This document shows positions 8,118-15,712 of a stretch of DNA of 31,815 nt, piece by piece; the first letter of the stretch is position 1; each line of letters begins with the position of its first letter. Under the pieces are notes generated by a model that saw nothing but the letters and a program-made list of their open reading frames with translations, made no database searches and was not told the DNA's origin. Both the position numbers and the translations under genes were made by a program. This DNA comes from a virus: the IMG/VR virus record IMGVR_UViG_3300031857_000853, positions 1 through 31,815 of that record, one strand, 5' to 3'.

Positions 8118-8373
8118 GGTTTTTATGTTTTACTTCAATAAACTTTACATCTTTTAATAAGTTAGTTTCACCGTCAAATATAAGTTGCAAATTACATCCT
8201 CTTTGACGGTCTTTAGTGTTTGATGAGATAAAGCTAGCGTGGCCTTTTTTACCTCTGTAAACGTAATATTCTAAAATTACATCAGGTTTTGGTATTTGCA
8301 TCTTTTTAGGATTTAAAACGGATTGTATATCTAAACCATTAATTTGTTTAGCATAAAGTTCAATATTGAGCAT
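8107..8373 (-). CDS. Hypothetical protein, 88 aa
   Basis: Not recognised. It is a small soluble alpha/beta-looking protein with a basic middle (VYRGKKGHASFISSNTKDRQ) and a C-terminal strand-rich part ending VKHKNHDR. GAGGA about 8 bases before ATG 8373 supports the start. It overlaps the SleB-type hydrolase gene by 14 bases and the tiny membrane ORF downstream by 11. There are no cysteines arranged as a zinc site and no membrane span. Confidence 0.6.
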   Translation of the reverse strand: MLNIELYAKQINGLDIQSVLNPKKMQIPKPDVILEYYVYRGKKGHASFISSNTKDRQRGCNLQLIFDGETNLLKDVKFIEVKHKNHDR

Positions 8374-8749
8374 ATTTTAGTTCCTCTTGTTTATAAAAAA
8401 CCATGCGAGACCATTGAACAGTCTTTTTAAGCTTAAACCAGCTTACAGGTTTTTTGATTGAGTTATCGTGGAAATGTGTTGCGCCGTAAGAATAGTCAGG
8501 CTCTAGTTTGTGCATGATGCGCCATGCTAAATTAAGAAAATGTGGATTGATTTCTTTACGTTCAGGTGGTTTAACTTTTCCATACCAAGTAAATTGATTT
8601 GGCCTTTTCATTTCATAACACACTTGTTTTGGATCAAAGTCAGCGCGTCGCATTAAAACGTAACCCACTGATATTTGTGCTTCTTTTGACTCAACGCTAG
8701 ACTCCATGAATATGGTTTGCGCGAGGCATAGTAACGCCTGGTCGATCAT
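8360..8749 (-). CDS. SleB-type cell wall hydrolase, 129 aa
   Basis: The protein matches the Hydrolase_2/SleB fold, which cuts the glycan backbone of peptidoglycan. ALLCLAQTIFMESSVESKEA contains the catalytic-type Glu16. The rest also fits: VGYVLMRR, the substrate-cleft motif FTWY, and a C-terminal ATHFHDNSI...PVSWFKLKK. The start at ATG 8749 is chosen because GGGAGG lies 6 bases upstream. An in-frame ATG at 8797 would overlap the YqaJ gene. There is no signal peptide. It lies in the early leftward operon, far from the holin/M15 lysis cassette, which is unusual for a lysin. Confidence 0.75.
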   Translation of the reverse strand: MIDQALLCLAQTIFMESSVESKEAQISVGYVLMRRADFDPKQVCYEMKRPNQFTWYGKVKPPERKEINPHFLNLAWRIMHKLEPDYSYGATHFHDNSIKKPVSWFKLKKTVQWSRMVFYKQEELKYAQY

Positions 8750-8793
8750 ATAAGACCTCCCTGTGTAGTTGCCAAGTTGTATTATACCATTTT

Positions 8794-9429
8794 TCAATTT
8801 TTGTCATTTTCAAGACGTAGAATTAGGTCATCAACTTCAGTTAAGAACTGTTTTACTTCCAACTCCATTTCTTTGATCATTGATAAGTCTTTTTCTACTC
8901 TGCTAATAAACAAACGATTTTTAAATGGTAGCCTTGGGTCGTATGAAACAAAGTCTGCCCATTCACGACCTGTAACCCATAATTGACATTGGATTTGTTT
9001 GTAGTAATCGCCAGGCACTTTGTTTTCAAAAATATAATCTAAATGCGTGGTAGTATTAGGGCATTTGATTTCTACTAAATGTTTGTCACCAAGTAGACGA
9101 TCAGGGGATACGCCAAGCCATTTGATTTCAGGATGCTTCCAAAAGCCTGTCTTTTCTAAAAACGTGCCTGTAGCTGCCTCGTATGCCATGGCTGCCATGG
9201 GTTCGTTTTCTACTCCCCATGCCATCGCGTCATTAGAATAAGATTCTAGCGGTTGCATAGTTAACCTTTCAGCTACAAGGCGAGTTTTATATTTTTTACG
9301 ACCTATGGCCTCGCCTGTTTTACCTTTAGACATTACCTCTGCAATATTGCTAGCACTGACATATCCTAATTTTGCAGTAGCCCACTCAACCGAACCTTGC
9401 TCTAGATGTGTGCAATCGTTGGCGATCAT
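8794..9429 (-). CDS. YqaJ-type viral recombinase exonuclease
   Basis: This is a lambda-Exo-like 5'-3' exonuclease that makes single-stranded ends for an annealing protein. The 211-aa sequence has the PD-(D/E)XK core: WGVENEPMA (Glu74/Glu76), SPDRLLG (Asp110), VEIKCP (Glu120, Lys122) and YKQIQCQLWVTG with Gln147. The N-terminal part (QGSVEWATAKLGYVSASNIA) is the usual YqaJ start. Its ATG overlaps the stop of the upstream HTH gene by four bases. Three genes away lies the annealing protein, so the pair forms a two-component recombination system. Confidence 0.9.
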   Translation of the reverse strand: MIANDCTHLEQGSVEWATAKLGYVSASNIAEVMSKGKTGEAIGRKKYKTRLVAERLTMQPLESYSNDAMAWGVENEPMAAMAYEAATGTFLEKTGFWKHPEIKWLGVSPDRLLGDKHLVEIKCPNTTTHLDYIFENKVPGDYYKQIQCQLWVTGREWADFVSYDPRLPFKNRLFISRVEKDLSMIKEMELEVKQFLTEVDDLILRLENDKN

Positions 9430-9641
9430 TTTTGAGGCTCCAGCTTGTATTCAGCTACATGACAAACTTCTTTATATTTATTTTTTACTTTTTTAGTATT
9501 GGTTGTAATTTCATAGCCTTTTTTTCTTAAATTGAAAATAGTATCTGCTAACCGATAAATGCCTAATTGAGTCCATGCTTTTAGTGGATCAATCTTGCCA
9601 TGCTTTTCTAAATACTTTGTCAAACGTTCTTGTTGATTCAT
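9426..9641 (-). CDS. Small helix-turn-helix protein (HTH_39 type), 71 aa
   Basis: The sequence follows a pattern very common in phages: N..ERL..YLEK.GKIDPLKAWTQLGIYRLADTIFNLRKKGYEI, a winged-helix-like HTH from about residue 5 to 45, then a basic strand region ending in VAEYKL. It probably binds DNA, perhaps as a local regulator or recombination accessory (inference). GGAGGA lies 5 bases before ATG 9641. It sits between an exported peptide gene and the YqaJ exonuclease. Confidence 0.75.
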   Translation of the reverse strand: MNQQERLTKYLEKHGKIDPLKAWTQLGIYRLADTIFNLRKKGYEITTNTKKVKNKYKEVCHVAEYKLEPQK

Positions 9642-9790: not shown

Positions 9791-10327
9791 TTACTCCTCC
9801 AATTTAGATTTTTTAGTTGATAATGCTGAACGTATAGTCGTTATAACATCAGGTTGACTACCAAACCTTCTTTGAGCCTCTTTAAATATATCTTTTAAAG
9901 ACTCAATAGATTCTGCTTCATTGATAGCTTCTAAAACTTGGTTTATGTCCTCATCTGAAGCTGGTTGCTCTTGAGGCACATCCTCGCCTGCGTATATATA
10001 TAAACCAATTCCATGTAATGCAATAGCCTTGGCCAAACAACGTTGCATGGCTGTATTAACTGCCATGGCGTCAGGGTTTATAACGGCTTTATTCTTGTAA
10101 TCTAATACAGGTAGTTGAGCTGTCATAGATTTACCAAAAGCCGTCACCGAGCAAAATACCATTAGGGTATCGCCAAATTGTTTAGGCTCTTTATATTCCC
10201 AGGTGGCTGTTGGATCGCGTTGTAATAAAGTATCCACCGCCCACGCCCATGAAAGATAGGTTAGGTTTCCTTTCTTCTCTGTGTGGTCATTTACGTTGAT
10301 ACTGCGTAAATCGTTAAATGTGGTCAT
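9791..10327 (-). CDS. Single-strand annealing protein, DUF1071/Sak type
   Basis: Phage annealing proteins pair complementary single strands made by an exonuclease. The 178-aa protein has the DUF1071 signature: F.DLRSINVNDHTEKKGNLTYLSWAWAVD at about 4-32, SVTAFGKSMTAQLPVLD, and AMAVNTAMQRCLAKAIALHGIGLYIYAGED at about 87-116. The C-terminal third is acidic and variable. With the YqaJ exonuclease at 8794-9429 it forms a complete exonuclease/annealing pair. The start (AAGGG, 6 bases upstream) overlaps the stop of a 29-codon ORF by four bases. Confidence 0.85.
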   Translation of the reverse strand: MTTFNDLRSINVNDHTEKKGNLTYLSWAWAVDTLLQRDPTATWEYKEPKQFGDTLMVFCSVTAFGKSMTAQLPVLDYKNKAVINPDAMAVNTAMQRCLAKAIALHGIGLYIYAGEDVPQEQPASDEDINQVLEAINEAESIESLKDIFKEAQRRFGSQPDVITTIRSALSTKKSKLEE

Positions 10328-10413
10328 TTGATTCCCTTTGCTAGTTGAATAGATTTTTTAAAAGTAAAGCCTTTGCAATATAAAAACACAACGTTTCGGA
10401 TGTATTTGAACAT
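10324..10413 (-). CDS. Tiny basic protein, 29 aa
   Basis: ATG 10413 overlaps the stop of the preceding gene (TAATG), and its own TGA overlaps the start of the annealing-protein gene (ATGA). The product is basic and partly hydrophobic (FKYIRNVVFLYCKGFTFKKS). Being coupled at both ends argues that it is translated, even if its purpose is mainly to couple translation. GGAG lies 11 bases upstream. No family recognised. Confidence 0.55.
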   Translation of the reverse strand: MFKYIRNVVFLYCKGFTFKKSIQLAKGIK

Positions 10414-10697
10414 TAGAAAAAGTCTCCATGTTGGTGGCCTGCGTCATACATGGCATCGTATGGGCCTTGATATACGTTAGCCTCATTTAACTTTTTTTCT
10501 GTAATACCCATCGCTTCCTCAAAAAAGGCATTACTTATAGATTTAGCAAAAAGGTTAAGGCTTAACATATCGCCTTTTTGATTGGCCCAATATAAAGCAC
10601 GAATTGTGCCAGCTAGCTGTTCCATATCCATGTGGGCTAAAACTTCCACTGGGTCTGTGTCAATTAAGTCTTCCGCGTATTCTTGTTGAATAGTCAT
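10413..10697 (-). CDS. Hypothetical acidic protein, 94 aa
   Basis: Not recognised. A soluble helical protein starting TIQQEYAEDLIDTDPVEVLA with a central LAGTIRALYWANQKGDMLSL and a C-terminal GPYDAMYDAGHQHGDFF. I use ATG 10697 because GGAGG lies 5 bases upstream and the stop of the preceding tiny gene is one base away. The longer in-frame start at 10757 would read through that gene. Its place second in the early operon suggests a host take-over or regulatory role, which the sequence does not show. Confidence 0.6.
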   Translation of the reverse strand: MTIQQEYAEDLIDTDPVEVLAHMDMEQLAGTIRALYWANQKGDMLSLNLFAKSISNAFFEEAMGITEKKLNEANVYQGPYDAMYDAGHQHGDFF

Positions 10698-10698
10698 A

Positions 10699-10803
10699 TT
10701 AGCCTCCAAAGTGTTTAGAAAGTATTGGGTATAAGAAGTAAAGCCAAAGCGCTCCATATAGATATACTGCTAGAACTGTTACGATCATGCCTTTTGTTTT
10801 CAT
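10699..10803 (-). CDS. Tiny membrane protein, first gene of leftward operon, 34 aa
   Basis: ATG 10803 is preceded by GGAGGAAATT, a strong ribosome site. The product has a short basic start (MKTKG) and one hydrophobic span (MIVTVLAVYLYGALWLYFLY), ending LSKHFGG: a one-pass inner-membrane protein. It would be the first product made from the leftward early promoter. Phage proteins of this sort often alter the host membrane or exclude other phages, but function is unknown. Confidence 0.65.
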   Translation of the reverse strand: MKTKGMIVTVLAVYLYGALWLYFLYPILSKHFGG

Positions 10804-10832
10804 AATTTCCTCCATAAATTTAAAAACTACAG

Positions 10833-10861
10833 TTGCTATATTAAACAAATAGTTTTATATT
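10833..10861 (+). promoter_or_regulatory. Rightward early promoter
   Basis: -35 TTGCTA (10833-10838), spacer of 17, -10 TATATT (10856-10861): a good sigma-70 match. Transcription would start near 10868 and read the Cro-like gene (ATG 10904) and the replication operon. It overlaps the leftward promoter, so the two cannot easily be occupied at once. Confidence 0.65.
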
Positions 10862-10865
10862 GCAA
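10838..10865 (-). promoter_or_regulatory. Leftward early promoter
   Basis: On the minus strand: -35 TTGCAA (10865-10860), spacer of 16, -10 TAATAT (10843-10838). It would drive the operon that starts at ATG 10803. Its two boxes overlap those of the rightward promoter on the other strand. Confidence 0.55.
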
Positions 10866-10903
10866 GCATTATTTAAACATTTTTATTAAAAAGGATATAA
10901 AAT

Positions 10904-11080
10904 ATGACAGACAAAGAAATTATAGAATTCTACGGAGGTGGCACAAAACTTGCTAGAAAGCTGGGCTTGCTTACTCACCACGATAGGATTAAGGTGAATA
11001 ATTGGAAGGTTAGAGGTATTCCAGCCAAGATTAAGCTTCAATACCCTGAAATTTTCCTAAAACGTAAATTTAAAGATTAG
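10904..11080 (+). CDS. Cro-like helix-turn-helix regulator, 58 aa
   Basis: A short protein with a Cro/YdaS-type DNA-binding layout. FYGGGTKLARKLGL (9-22) gives helices 1-2, and RIKVNNWKVRGIPAKIKL (28-45) gives the recognition helix, followed by a hydrophobic patch and a basic tail. AAGGA lies 8 bases before ATG. It is the first gene of the rightward early operon and sits next to overlapping divergent promoters, the position of cro in lambdoid phages. It probably represses one or both early promoters. No CI-type partner is visible, so a lysogeny switch is not indicated. Confidence 0.75.
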   Translation: MTDKEIIEFYGGGTKLARKLGLLTHHDRIKVNNWKVRGIPAKIKLQYPEIFLKRKFKD

Positions 11081-11087
11081 AGGAACT

Positions 11088-11780
11088 ATGCACTATTTTC
11101 AACACAACATCGCCGACTACCGTAAGGACACAGGCCATTTGACCCTGCTAGAACATGGTGCTTACAGGCAGCTATTAGATCAATATTACCTAAACGAGCA
11201 ACCTTTGCCTTTAGATGAGAATAGATTAATGCGGTTACTGTCAGCTAGAAATAATGACGAAATAAGGGCAGTTTTAAGCGTTTTGGCCGACTTTTTTGAG
11301 AAAACCGAGCAAGGATATATCCACAAACGTTGCGAGGCTGAAATCGAGGCTTTTAGGGCTAAATCCGAATTGGCCTCTAAATCTGCAAAAATTAGGTGGG
11401 ATAAGCAACAAATGTCGGAATTCTCTGATAGAATGCAGATAGTTAGCGAACGGACTGCGAAACGTGTGCGAACGCATAGCGAACCCAATGCTAACCATAA
11501 ACCATTAACCATTAACCATAAACCATTAACCAATAATATAAAACCCTTGTCCGATTTTGATATGTTTTGGATTGCATACCCTAAAAAAGTTGGTAAAGAA
11601 GCAGCTAGAAAAGCCTGGGCTAAAGCTAACCCTGAATTAGCTACGGTATTAAATGCGTTGGAATGGCAAAAGGTAAGCCCACAATGGTTTAAAAACAACG
11701 GCCAATATATCCCTAACCCTTCCACGTGGCTCAACCAACATCGCTTTTTAGACGAAAAACCGCAGGAGCAGACATTTTGA
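11088..11780 (+). CDS. YdaU-like (DUF1376) replication initiation protein
   Basis: Residues about 1-105 form the DUF1376/YdaU domain: HYFQHNIADYRKDTGHLTLL, EHGAYRQLLDQYYL, then DFFEKTEQGYIHKRCEAEI. It is a winged-helix-type domain found in phage replication proteins at the O-gene position. A linker holds a 7-residue repeat (NHKPLTI, NHKPLTN). The C-terminal part (FDMFWIAYPKKVGKEAARKA ... YIPNPSTWLNQHRF) is also typical of phage replisome proteins. The repeat is mirrored in DNA as 21-bp direct repeats that may form the origin. It probably binds the origin and recruits the helicase loader encoded next. Confidence 0.8.
   Translation: MHYFQHNIADYRKDTGHLTLLEHGAYRQLLDQYYLNEQPLPLDENRLMRLLSARNNDEIRAVLSVLADFFEKTEQGYIHKRCEAEIEAFRAKSELASKSAKIRWDKQQMSEFSDRMQIVSERTAKRVRTHSEPNANHKPLTINHKPLTNNIKPLSDFDMFWIAYPKKVGKEAARKAWAKANPELATVLNALEWQKVSPQWFKNNGQYIPNPSTWLNQHRFLDEKPQEQTF
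11492..11532 (+). repeat. Two 21-bp direct repeats (iteron-like, possible origin)
   Basis: The 20-base unit beginning TAACCATAAACCATT occurs at 11492-11511 and again, without mismatch, at 11513-11532 (period 21). Each unit itself contains the smaller repeat AACCAT three times with 6-8 base spacing. An AT-rich stretch (CAATAATATAAAA) follows immediately. An iteron array next to AT-rich DNA inside the replication-protein gene is how lambda-type origins are built. Confidence 0.5.
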
Positions 11781-12881: not shown

Positions 12882-13071
12882 CTTTTATGGAACTAATTTA
12901 CCTATTACCACAAAAGACATTGAGTTTATGGAAAAAAGAAATATTAAAGTTCAAGAATTAAAAAGACAATTAGGCAAAAAATATATATTATTTAATGTCA
13001 CATCTATTCACAACAAAGGAGAGCAACATGGCGTCAGTAAACAAAGCAATCATAGTAGGAAATCTAGGTAA
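12868..13071 (+). CDS. Possible small protein overlapping ssb, 67 aa
   Basis: A 67-codon frame from ATG 12868 runs 14 bases inside the previous gene and 44 bases into ssb. It fills a 146-base gap that otherwise has no gene. The product is basic ([20 protein letters not shown]), and its last 15 residues are forced by the ssb reading frame. GGGGAGG lies about 12 bases before the ATG, rather far. It could be real, or the gap could just be an untranslated leader for ssb. Confidence 0.4.
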
Positions 13072-13438
13072 AGACCCTGAAGTTAGATTTTTACCCAACG
13101 GCGATGCAGTTTGTAATTTTAGCGTAGCCACCACAGAGTCTTGGAAAGACAAAGACGGCAAGAAAAACGAAAAAACAGAGTGGCACAATATAGTTTTATT
13201 TAGAAAGCTTGCAGAAATAGCAGGCGAGTATTTAAAAAAAGGCCGACCTGTATATTTGGAAGGCAGACTTCAAACACGCAAATGGCAAGACAAAGAAGGC
13301 CAGGAGCGCTATACAACAGAAATAGTAGCGGACACCATGCAAATGCTAGGTAGTCGTGAAGAAGCAAAAGAAGTGGCAAGCACAACAGCCACACCTCCTG
13401 CAAACTTTGATGACATGGCAGACGACGTTCCGTTTTAA
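13028..13438 (+). CDS. ssb: Single-stranded DNA-binding protein
   Basis: A bacterial-type OB-fold SSB that coats single-stranded DNA in replication and recombination. The 136-aa protein has the standard start ([20 protein letters not shown]), [39 protein letters not shown] and the acidic C-terminal tip DDVPF that recruits partner proteins. The tail linker is shorter than in host SSBs. ATG 13028 is preferred because AAGGAGA lies 5-8 bases upstream. The in-frame ATG at 12995 adds residues not found in SSBs. Confidence 0.95.
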
Positions 13439-13439
13439 C

Positions 13440-13631
13440 ATGAATGACGATTTTGACAGAGCTAGTGATTTAGAACAGACGGATCGTGATTTAGCCATTG
13501 AACGTGTCAGATCACAATCAAAAAGTTTTGAACCCACTGGCTTTTGTCTTAATTGCCGTGAGCCATCAAAAAAAAGATTTTGCAATATAGACTGCCGTAA
13601 TGACTACGAGAAAAGACAACATGACAGATAA
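13440..13631 (+). CDS. Small Cys4 zinc-finger protein, DksA/TraR-like, 63 aa
   Basis: The N-terminal half is an acidic helix (DDFDRASDLEQTDRDLAIER). The C-terminal half holds a Cys4 site with Cys36, Cys39, Cys48 and Cys52 (FCLNCRE, RFCNIDCRNDYE), very like the C-terminal finger of TraR/DksA, which bind the secondary channel of RNA polymerase. A related zinc ribbon used only for DNA binding is possible. It starts one base after the ssb stop codon. Confidence 0.65.
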   Translation: MNDDFDRASDLEQTDRDLAIERVRSQSKSFEPTGFCLNCREPSKKRFCNIDCRNDYEKRQHDR

Positions 13632-14073
13632 CTATTTACAAAAAATAATTAGATTAGTTGGTAAGCCACAAGTTGAGGTTGCCATAAACGCAATACAGAA
13701 TGCACCAATAGATTCACAATATCCCCTAGAAGTAATTATTAGAAAAGAGCAAACGTCTAGATCATTAAGTGCTAACGCTCTTATGTGGGCAGGCCCACTG
13801 AACGACATAGCACAACAAGCTTGGGTTCATGGCCGTCAATATTCAGCATTGGTTTGGCATGAATATTTTAAAGAACAGTTTTTACCTGAATTACATGATC
13901 CTGAAACAACCAAGGAAGGTTATAAAAAATACGAGGAAACGCCTGAAGGTAAACGCATACTTGTAGGATCAACCTCTAAACTTACAAAGCATGGGTTTAG
14001 TTTGTATATAGAAAATATATACGCTTATGGAGCAAATCTTGGCGTTAGATTTACAGAAACCTATCAAGCCTAA
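13621..14073 (+). CDS. ninB: NinB / Orf family recombination protein
   Basis: Lambda NinB (Orf) binds single-stranded DNA and SSB and can replace RecFOR in loading recombination proteins. The 150-aa protein has the family pattern: L.VIIRKEQTSRSLSANALMW, GPLNDIAQQAWVHGRQYSA, WHEYFKEQFLP, VGSTSKLTKHGFSLYIENIY and a final AYGANLGVRF. The start is put at ATG 13621, which overlaps the zinc-finger gene by 11 bases. An in-frame ATG at 13600 has no ribosome site. As in lambda it is followed by ninG. Confidence 0.85.
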   Translation: MTDNYLQKIIRLVGKPQVEVAINAIQNAPIDSQYPLEVIIRKEQTSRSLSANALMWAGPLNDIAQQAWVHGRQYSALVWHEYFKEQFLPELHDPETTKEGYKKYEETPEGKRILVGSTSKLTKHGFSLYIENIYAYGANLGVRFTETYQA

Positions 14074-14596
14074 AAAGTGTAAAATATGTAAAGCATACTT
14101 TACACCTACAAAACCGCTTCAGCAGGTGTGCCAATGGAAATGCGCATTAGATTTTGCAAACAATCAAAAAATTAAAAAGATTAAAAAAGAAGTAAAAGAA
14201 GCTAGACAAAAAATTAAAAGCCGTTCAGATTGGTTAAAAGAAACACAGGTTGTATTTAATAAATATATAAGATTAAGGGATCAAAATGACGGTTGTATTA
14301 GTTGTGGGTCAAAAAGTGCCAGCGCATATCATGCAGGCCATTACCGAAGCATTGGAAGTGCAGGACACTTACGATTTAACGAGCAGAACTGCCACCGACA
14401 ATGCGCAGCCTGTAACACCCATTTATCTGGTAACCTCATCCGATACCGACTCGGACTTATTAGAAAAATTGGAATACACGCTGTTGAAACACTCGAGTCT
14501 GATAACAACACAGTAAAATTGACAATAGATCAAATAAAATCTATAAAAGTGTTGTTTTCTGATAAAATAAAAGCTTATAATTCTAATACTAACTAG
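14027..14596 (+). CDS. ninG: NinG / Rap recombination nuclease
   Basis: NinG (Rap) is a structure-specific endonuclease acting on Holliday junctions and D-loops. An N-terminal zinc site (Cys18, Cys21, Cys35, Cys39 in PKKCKICKAYF / QQVCQWKCA) is followed by a long basic helix. An HNH-like core comes next: GCISCGSKSASAYHAGHYRS (Cys90, Cys93, His102, His105), LRFNEQNCHRQCAACNTHLS. It ends with LIRYRLGLIRKIGIHAVETL, as in lambda. The 189-aa length is normal. A TTG at 14039 has a better ribosome site (GGAG, 6 bases upstream) than ATG 14027, so the true start may be four codons later. It overlaps ninB. Confidence 0.85.
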   Translation: MEQILALDLQKPIKPKKCKICKAYFTPTKPLQQVCQWKCALDFANNQKIKKIKKEVKEARQKIKSRSDWLKETQVVFNKYIRLRDQNDGCISCGSKSASAYHAGHYRSIGSAGHLRFNEQNCHRQCAACNTHLSGNLIRYRLGLIRKIGIHAVETLESDNNTVKLTIDQIKSIKVLFSDKIKAYNSNTN

Positions 14597-15164: not shown

Positions 15165-15410
15165 ATGGCTAATGTAAATTCTACCGATAGTTGCTTATCT
15201 TGTAAATTTTTTATTACAGGCGGCCAACTCGGTTCTTGTCATAGATATCCTCAAACATTTAACAAAGCACCTTCAGAATGGTGCGGTGAATACGTCTTTG
15301 CTAACGTAGCAAGAACTAAAGACGAAGTCACTCCTGAACCTATCCACGCACCACAGTTAGAATCAAAACCTATTCAGATTGAAAAAAAAACTTTGAGGAT
15401 TAAAAAATGA
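15165..15410 (+). CDS. Small cysteine-motif protein, 81 aa
   Basis: The N-terminal half carries four ordered cysteines: SCLSCKFF (Cys9, Cys12), GSCHRYPQTF (Cys23) and WCGEY (Cys38). This is a likely zinc or iron-sulphur site seen in many short phage proteins (C..C.F....G.CHRYP...W.CG). The C-terminal half is a Pro/Glu/Lys linker without fold. GGAGG precedes ATG 15165. Its last codons overlap the start of the GroES gene (ATGA), so the two are co-translated. Confidence 0.7.
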   Translation: MANVNSTDSCLSCKFFITGGQLGSCHRYPQTFNKAPSEWCGEYVFANVARTKDEVTPEPIHAPQLESKPIQIEKKTLRIKK

Positions 15411-15712
15411 TCAGACCTTTTGGCGATAAAATATTAGTTAAACCTATTGAACGTGAAAAGTCATCTATTCCAGGCTTTGTTATGCATGAGGAATATAACA
15501 TGGGAACAGTCATAGCTGTTGGCCAAGGTAAAAAGATCAAGGAAGGCCGATACGAACCTATGCCTGTTAATATTGGTGACAAGGTTAGATTTGGCACTAT
15601 GGGCAAAGATGAATATCTTAAATACCAACAAGTGACCGATAACGGTGAGAACTATCTTATAATGTCTTGGCAAGACGTATGTTTTATTGAGGAGGAAGAA
15701 AATGGCAACTAA
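15407..15712 (+). CDS. groES: GroES-like co-chaperonin, 101 aa
   Basis: GroES caps the GroEL folding chamber. The protein has the Cpn10 pattern: IRPFGDKILVKPIEREKSS at the start, a mobile-loop region around 23-31, GTVIAVGQGK (about 33-42), MPVNIGDKVRFG (about 51-62) and the final NYLIMSWQDVCFIE. The mobile loop (IPGFVMHEE) is altered compared with host GroES. No GroEL is encoded here, so it would work with the host ring, as T4 gp31 and other phage co-chaperonins do for coat folding. It starts inside the previous stop (ATGA). Confidence 0.85.
   Translation: MIRPFGDKILVKPIEREKSSIPGFVMHEEYNMGTVIAVGQGKKIKEGRYEPMPVNIGDKVRFGTMGKDEYLKYQQVTDNGENYLIMSWQDVCFIEEEENGN

Follow-up and report, generated by a model that had tools for sequence, protein, structure and literature searches.

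The predicted early promoters of both directions in a 31,815-nt stretch of viral DNA (the window; IMG/VR record IMGVR_UViG_3300031857_000853, positions 1-31,815) overlap around what is likely a single site for a Cro-like repressor. Judging from the sequence, we consider it probable that this is a collapsed lambda-type early control region, in which PL and PR share one operator and Cro would act as a negative-feedback timer and not as a switch. The timer is better supported than a switch because no repressor opposing Cro was detected. No near-identity match for the window DNA was found in the phage collection, and no Rfam family was found in positions 10300-11300.

Interlocked promoters in the window

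Both strands carry a -35/-10 pair within the same 33 bp, and every element of the overlapping opposite-strand pairs described in the first-pass annotation was found in its place (Table 1), the leftward pair being weak. The rightward promoter agrees with the consensus at 9 of 12 positions and the leftward promoter at 8 of 12, which is why the latter is missing from a 9-of-12 scan. The two -10 hexamers are distinct (10838-10843 and 10856-10861), and no single -10 serves both directions. Also present was the 8-of-9 inverted repeat with one -35 box in each arm, formed by TTGCTATAT (10833-10841) and TTGCAATAT (10865-10857), which lengthens to 12 paired positions of 14 (10833-10846 and 10852-10865). 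The window taken alone proves little, because the region has no more promoter-like sites than its shuffles do (6 versus 11.1 ± 3.2) and the 12/14 dyad is near chance (0.12 expected per 101 bp at this AT-rich composition). The AT content is 82% over the 100 bp.

Table 1 Features of the early region of the window, with predicted roles
Feature	Sequence	Position	Strand	Remark
Rightward -35	TTGCTA	10833-10838	+	Best rightward promoter of the upstream region
Rightward -10	TATATT	10856-10861	+	Spacer 17 bp
Leftward -35	TTGCAA	10865-10860	-	TTGACA or TTGACT in relatives
Leftward -10	TAATAT	10843-10838	-	Spacer 16 bp
33-bp dyad		10833-10865	.	14-nt arms, 12/14 paired, around AAATA; outer part consists of promoter hexamers
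Likely operator O1	AAACAAATAGTTT	10843-10855	.	AAAC-N5-GTTT, within the spacer common to both promoters
Degenerate second operator O2	AAACATTTTTATT	10875-10887	.	About 32 bp from O1; poor in the window
Apparent specificity cassette		10837-11011	+	Leftward -35, rightward -10, operators, cro codons 1-36
Cro-like 58-aa helix-turn-helix protein		10904-11080	+	phrog_8008 match, model, neighbours
First leftward gene, 34-aa hydrophobic peptide		10699-10803	-	GGAGG at 10809-10813; inferred start codon
114-aa leftward gene		10413-10757	-	No family match
Sak single-strand annealing protein		9791-10327	-	PL-like operon
HTH_39 winged-helix protein, 71 aa		9426-9641	-	Between Sak and YqaJ exonuclease
YqaJ-type exonuclease		8794-9429	-	PL-like operon
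DUF1376 / primosomal, replication protein		11088-11780	+	PR-like operon
Single-strand binding protein (SSB)		12995-13438	+	
NinB		13600-14073	+	
NinG		14027-14596	+	

Conservation of the interlock in related viruses

Relatives of the 58-aa protein were taken from viral contigs, 70 loci from one search and the best 80 of 114 from another. Clades A (the window type), B, C and E are those in which no CI was found, L097 stands singly, and clade D is the temperate type, nearly all of whose members have CI. Repeats of contigs already included (L073-L096, L099-L108, L125-L132 and L135-L144) went uncounted, and the partial or remote matches L068-L071 stand outside both the interlock and the operator counts. 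The interlock count covered the CI-less clades only, with 67 loci and 35 distinct 120-bp upstream regions, and promoters were scored as interlocked when the best-scoring rightward and the best-scoring leftward promoter overlapped by at least 22 bp. This was the case in 29 of the 35 upstreams, including that of the window, with an overlap of 24-25 bp (clade A 8/10, B 12/12, E 9/10, C 0/2, L097 0/1), and in 217 of 2100 first-order Markov controls of the same composition (79 of 2100 with both promoters at 6 bits or more). The 35 upstreams are mutually related, and the count therefore demonstrates conservation and not 35 independent events.

The hexamers vary yet remain promoter-like, the leftward -35 being TTGCAA, TTGACA or TTGACT and the rightward -10 TATATT, TATGAT or TATAGT, while L032 has TTGACA at both -35 boxes. 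Spacers are 16, 17 or 18 bp long in the leftward promoter and 17 or 18 bp in the rightward. Interlocking is not universal, since in clade C (two upstreams) and L097 the dyad is kept and the best rightward promoter lies downstream; in L015, L022 and L121 another promoter scores higher on one strand. The symmetry and spacing of the arms, which had been singled out for comparison among related phages, are not strictly kept, but clades A, B and E do retain interlocked promoters with the operator in their common spacer.

This conservation bears on the possibility that only the rightward promoter is real, the leftward -35/-10 being a chance product of AT-rich sequence and the leftward operon starting elsewhere. 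The 8/12 leftward match, the lack of a promoter-site excess and the 82% AT content of the 100 bp would all fit a lone rightward promoter, but clades B, E and C have a strong leftward element (TTGACA, TTGACT or TTGACG, with the -10 at 16-18), whose position ahead of the leftward gene is unchanged in B and E. We therefore regard a lone rightward promoter as unlikely.

Interlocked near-consensus promoters were also seen in unrelated phages, at no fewer than nine loci (for example L148:2001-2034, L176:1162-1195 and L207:1148-1181), between the start of a gene resembling the terminase small subunit (judged by eye) and an unknown gene, with no Cro-like neighbour.

A candidate Cro operator in the shared spacer

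Interlocking places the reverse complement of the other -10 after each -35, so that promoter sequence makes up most of the outer arms of the dyad. Promoter function leaves the inner AAACAAATAGTTT unexplained, and this is likely the Cro site. The earlier proposal that the 58-aa protein binds the dyad thus holds in altered form: the dyad likely contains the predicted site, but in its interior and not in the arms that bear the -35 boxes, and the AAC-N5-GTT core recurs in relatives.

Operator cores were counted in the 120 bp before cro at 89 loci (46 distinct upstreams), with a Markov expectation for WAAC-N5-GTTW of 0.015-0.045 per upstream. The motif occurs twice in every distinct upstream of clades B (12/12) and E (10/10), as two TAAC-N5-GTTA sites 33 bp apart in B and 32 bp apart in E, nine of the ten E upstreams carrying two copies of the same 13-mer, and at least once in clades C (2/2) and D (10/11). 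Clade A has the exact motif in 3 of 10 distinct upstreams, the window among them, and the other seven have AATC/GATT or mixed halves instead, with both halves changed symmetrically to AATC/GATT in L010 and L015 (by eye). Mixed halves also make up the single sites of L067 and L049. The second operator, O2, is well defined in clades B and E as well as in L049. Over the whole window, additional Cro sites were not enriched, either as AAAC-N5-GTTT with one mismatch (39 versus 30.9 ± 5.7) or as TTAAAC-N5-GTTTTA with two (12 versus 11.0 ± 4.1), and the sole other exact AAAC-N5-GTTT is at 10384.

The 58-aa Cro-like protein

The first-pass annotation had placed a Cro-like gene of 58 codons beside the promoters, and this was borne out by a gene start at 10904, a helix-turn-helix model and the replication genes that come next. 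The protein matches phrog_8008, a DNA-binding family, in sequence, and its AlphaFold model (pLDDT 93.4) has a helix at residues 25-37 that contains N32, N33, K35 and R37. Among solved structures the best matches, all of them weak, include the Cro proteins of N15, Xfaso 1 and P22 (Z 3.4-4.1, Foldseek E 5). The Pfam family P22_Cro falls below its cut-off (E 0.086), and the top Pfam match, YdaS_toxin (E 2e-4), scores 21.6 bits against a cut-off of 30, giving no YdaS assignment. A sequence search of solved structures returned splicing factors in its top rows, which were taken for chance, and P22 Cro at E 0.23. The gene of this small helix-turn-helix protein is the first of the rightward early operon, ahead of the replication genes, and a homologue in Acinetobacter phage fEg-Aba01 is annotated as Cro, with CI opposite.

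The conserved site and its coupled change with the protein suggest that the 58-aa protein may bind an operator at its own promoter. Residue 32 is N, S or Q with AAAC operators and Y or H with TAAC operators (Q in L067 and S in L049). The Cro tree has two starred branches only and does not separate clades B and E as one event or two, so the link between residue 32 and the operator is a lead only.

Early genes and the apparent absence of CI

The leftward genes (Sak, YqaJ) and the rightward genes (Cro-like, DUF1376, SSB, NinB, NinG) match those of PL and PR operons. Nearby, a leftward gene downstream of that for the exonuclease (8360-8797) encodes an endolysin-family protein (phrog_938), and a GroES-like co-chaperonin gene (Cpn10, E 4.6e-13) lies at 15407-15712, as one also does in a Manatee Spring relative. 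The early region of L145, a related Manatee Spring phage, is different and has no listed Cro homologue, its intergenic DNA having been inspected by eye. In L037, L039, L118-L120 and L124 the start of the first leftward gene is unlike the window type, with ribosome-binding site and promoter kept, and this gene may be swapped too. The HTH_39 protein (9426-9641) is a possible second regulator.

The CI-less group comprises 25 records, of which six are 31-39 kb long and the remainder are fragments. An S24 repressor domain was found in none of the 25, compared with 8 of 9 temperate-type records, in agreement with the earlier remark that an obvious CI partner is lacking, and an integrase domain in none of the 25, compared with 7 of 9. 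HTH_3 was seen in 1 of 11 records of the group (E 0.008, below its cut-off). The group thus seems to have lost the usual CI repressor, most firmly so in the six records of 31-39 kb, most records being fragments.

In temperate relatives a gene for an S24 (CI-type) repressor diverges from that of the Cro homologue, and in L053 cro is followed by a weakly CII-like protein (E 0.0012, below cut-off). In L053, PL reads TTGACT-ACAGT-AAACACCACGTT-TACTAT and PR reads TTGACA-ATAGG-AAACATGATGTT-TACTAT, and those of L058 are the same except for one base in PR. PL lies left of cI and PR before cro in both, and the spacer between the -35 and -10 of each promoter holds the operator in the same register; L133 and L067 have closely similar PL and PR operator sites. 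The window has nearly the L053/L058 register in both directions, on one operator. Given this shared register, the match of gene content to PL and PR operons and the failure to find CI or integrase, we infer that loss of the cI interval came first and that PL and PR then merged on one operator.

These results do not favor the bidirectional switch of the first-pass annotation. Nothing detected opposes Cro, and a single site lies between both -35/-10 pairs, so Cro should silence the two promoters together. A true two-state toggle would need an undetected leftward product, for example the HTH_39 protein (71 aa) or that of 114 aa, which represses the rightward promoter. The leftward operon does encode the winged-helix HTH_39 protein, and L031 has a similar 79-aa reading frame at the same place (by eye), but the HTH_39 gene is not adjacent to the promoter and was not seen among the leftward frames of L047 (by eye). 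With no second operator class seen and integrase and S24 in 0 of 25 records, we judge such a toggle to be very improbable.

Apparent exchange of operators with the DNA-binding half of cro

Related viruses appear to have swapped their operators as a cassette together with the half of cro that specifies DNA binding. The window and L098 (clade E) share 252 identical nt ending at 10836, the C of the rightward TTGC, within a tract of ~96-100% identity that begins at ~10350. To the right of this junction the operators differ, and cro codons 1-36 are ~56% identical while codons 37-58 are 85% identical; other aligned blocks of the two are ~81-89% identical. When a shared left flank was defined as no more than 6 mismatches over the 200 nt to the left of this junction, it was found in 9 of 1302 between-clade pairs, all 55-58% identical in codons 1-36, and in 51 within-clade pairs, whose lowest identity in codons 1-36 was 90% and whose median was 100%. 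The nine pairs represent two independent combinations, the window type with L098, and L023/L025 with L034/L040. A gapped comparison over 250 nt gave 100% for L026 with L045/L046 and 98.8% for L020 with L043/L044. Between chosen members of clades A and B (24 pairs), DNA identity is 88.5% in codons 37-58 (within-A 90.5%) and 55.4% in codons 1-36, and the use of identical codons at unchanged residues also differs (0.50 versus 0.71).

The flank identity, the contrast between codon halves and the codon use argue for recombination on either side of the operator and the DNA-binding segment of cro. Chimeric assembly could account for single contigs, but hardly for several. The left edge of the cassette would lie inside the interlocked promoter and its right edge at about codon 37 of cro, and the operators would be of two or more specificities (AAAC-N5-GTTT and TAAC-N5-GTTA). 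Specificity rules for Cro and its operators are known in lambdoid phages (Hall et al. 2005, as cited in PMC4488713). More tentatively, since we would sooner bet against it than for it, these CI-less phages may practice a heteroimmunity based on Cro only, in which collapsed PL/PR regions repeatedly exchange a cassette of ~175 bp and the different operator types permit escape from repression. If so, differing operators would let a phage evade the Cro of a co-infecting phage or the CI of a resident prophage, and superinfection-type competition would shape Cro in non-lysogenic phages. Of the leads from this work, this apparent exchange of a cassette is the most interesting.

The joint change of operators and the helix-turn-helix half of cro also makes it very doubtful that the dyad is mere promoter symmetry and that the 58-aa protein has its role elsewhere, perhaps as a toxin or antitoxin of the YdaS type: interlocked -35/-10 pairs do generate inverted repeats unaided and occur in unrelated phages without an adjacent Cro gene, and YdaS_toxin is the best Pfam match (E 2e-4, under the cut-off), but the AAC-N5-GTT core is kept and doubled where the hexamers differ and is found in temperate PL and PR.

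Discussion

Promoter and operator geometry, its conservation, the PL/PR register of the temperate relatives and the gene content, as read from the sequence, would fit a self-limiting early burst under a Cro timer. The phage would derive from a temperate phage of the lambda type, or have been put together in the same way, with PL (recombination genes) and PR (cro, replication and nin genes) on opposite strands of the same 33 bp. Host sigma-70 RNA polymerase would bind in one orientation or the other, presumably with steric exclusion, and both operons would be transcribed from the predicted starts over successive rounds after infection. As it accumulates, the 58-aa Cro, probably as a dimer, would occupy O1, cover both promoters and stop both operons, thereby setting the timing. 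Where a second site is clear, as in clades B and E, it lies about three helical turns farther downstream and may add repression of the rightward operon and of cro. If this is correct, the region would represent the textbook lambda switch in minimal form, with both early promoters on 33 bp and a single repressor, and would offer a small system for the sharing of interlocked promoters by RNA polymerase and for joint specificity change of a repressor and its operator.

The closest known arrangement is the lambdoid immunity region (OL/PL-cI-OR/PR-cro), of which L053, L058, L067, L133 and Acinetobacter phage fEg-Aba01 are temperate examples. It likewise has a Cro-like gene with recombination genes to the left and replication genes to the right, and in L053, L058, L067 and L133 the operator falls within the -35/-10 spacers of PL and PR, as in the window. 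In the lambdoid region, however, PL and PR are parted by cI and have operator sets of three, whereas those of the window are interlocked on one or two operators. The lambdoid region also has a divergent CI-type gene, whereas no CI or integrase was found in the group of the window.

Overlapping divergent promoters with a shared operator are familiar from bioA/bioB and tetA/tetR. No published account of interlocked PL and PR on one Cro operator was recognized in the literature searched, which is not proof of absence. The bidirectional promoters of E. coli, as described by Warman et al. (2026, PMC12825309), likewise place two mutually exclusive RNA polymerase orientations on one short stretch, but they share one -10, whereas each -10 of the window overlaps or abuts the other -35 and the predicted starts are ~37 bp apart. 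In the promoters they tested, basal transcription is reported to have been too low for competition, which set in once one direction was activated. The Pc and Pr promoters of pLS20 (PMC4207663) also overlap in opposite directions with a repressor site between them; the cited text describes a tetramer that loops DNA and activates its own promoter, whereas the window has a small Cro-like protein in a phage early region. Cro of phage PY54 (PMC4488713) similarly acts through a single palindromic site, in a phage described there as temperate with a CI repressor, unlike the window. The architecture is a variation on known overlapping divergent promoters with a shared operator, and this variant is new.
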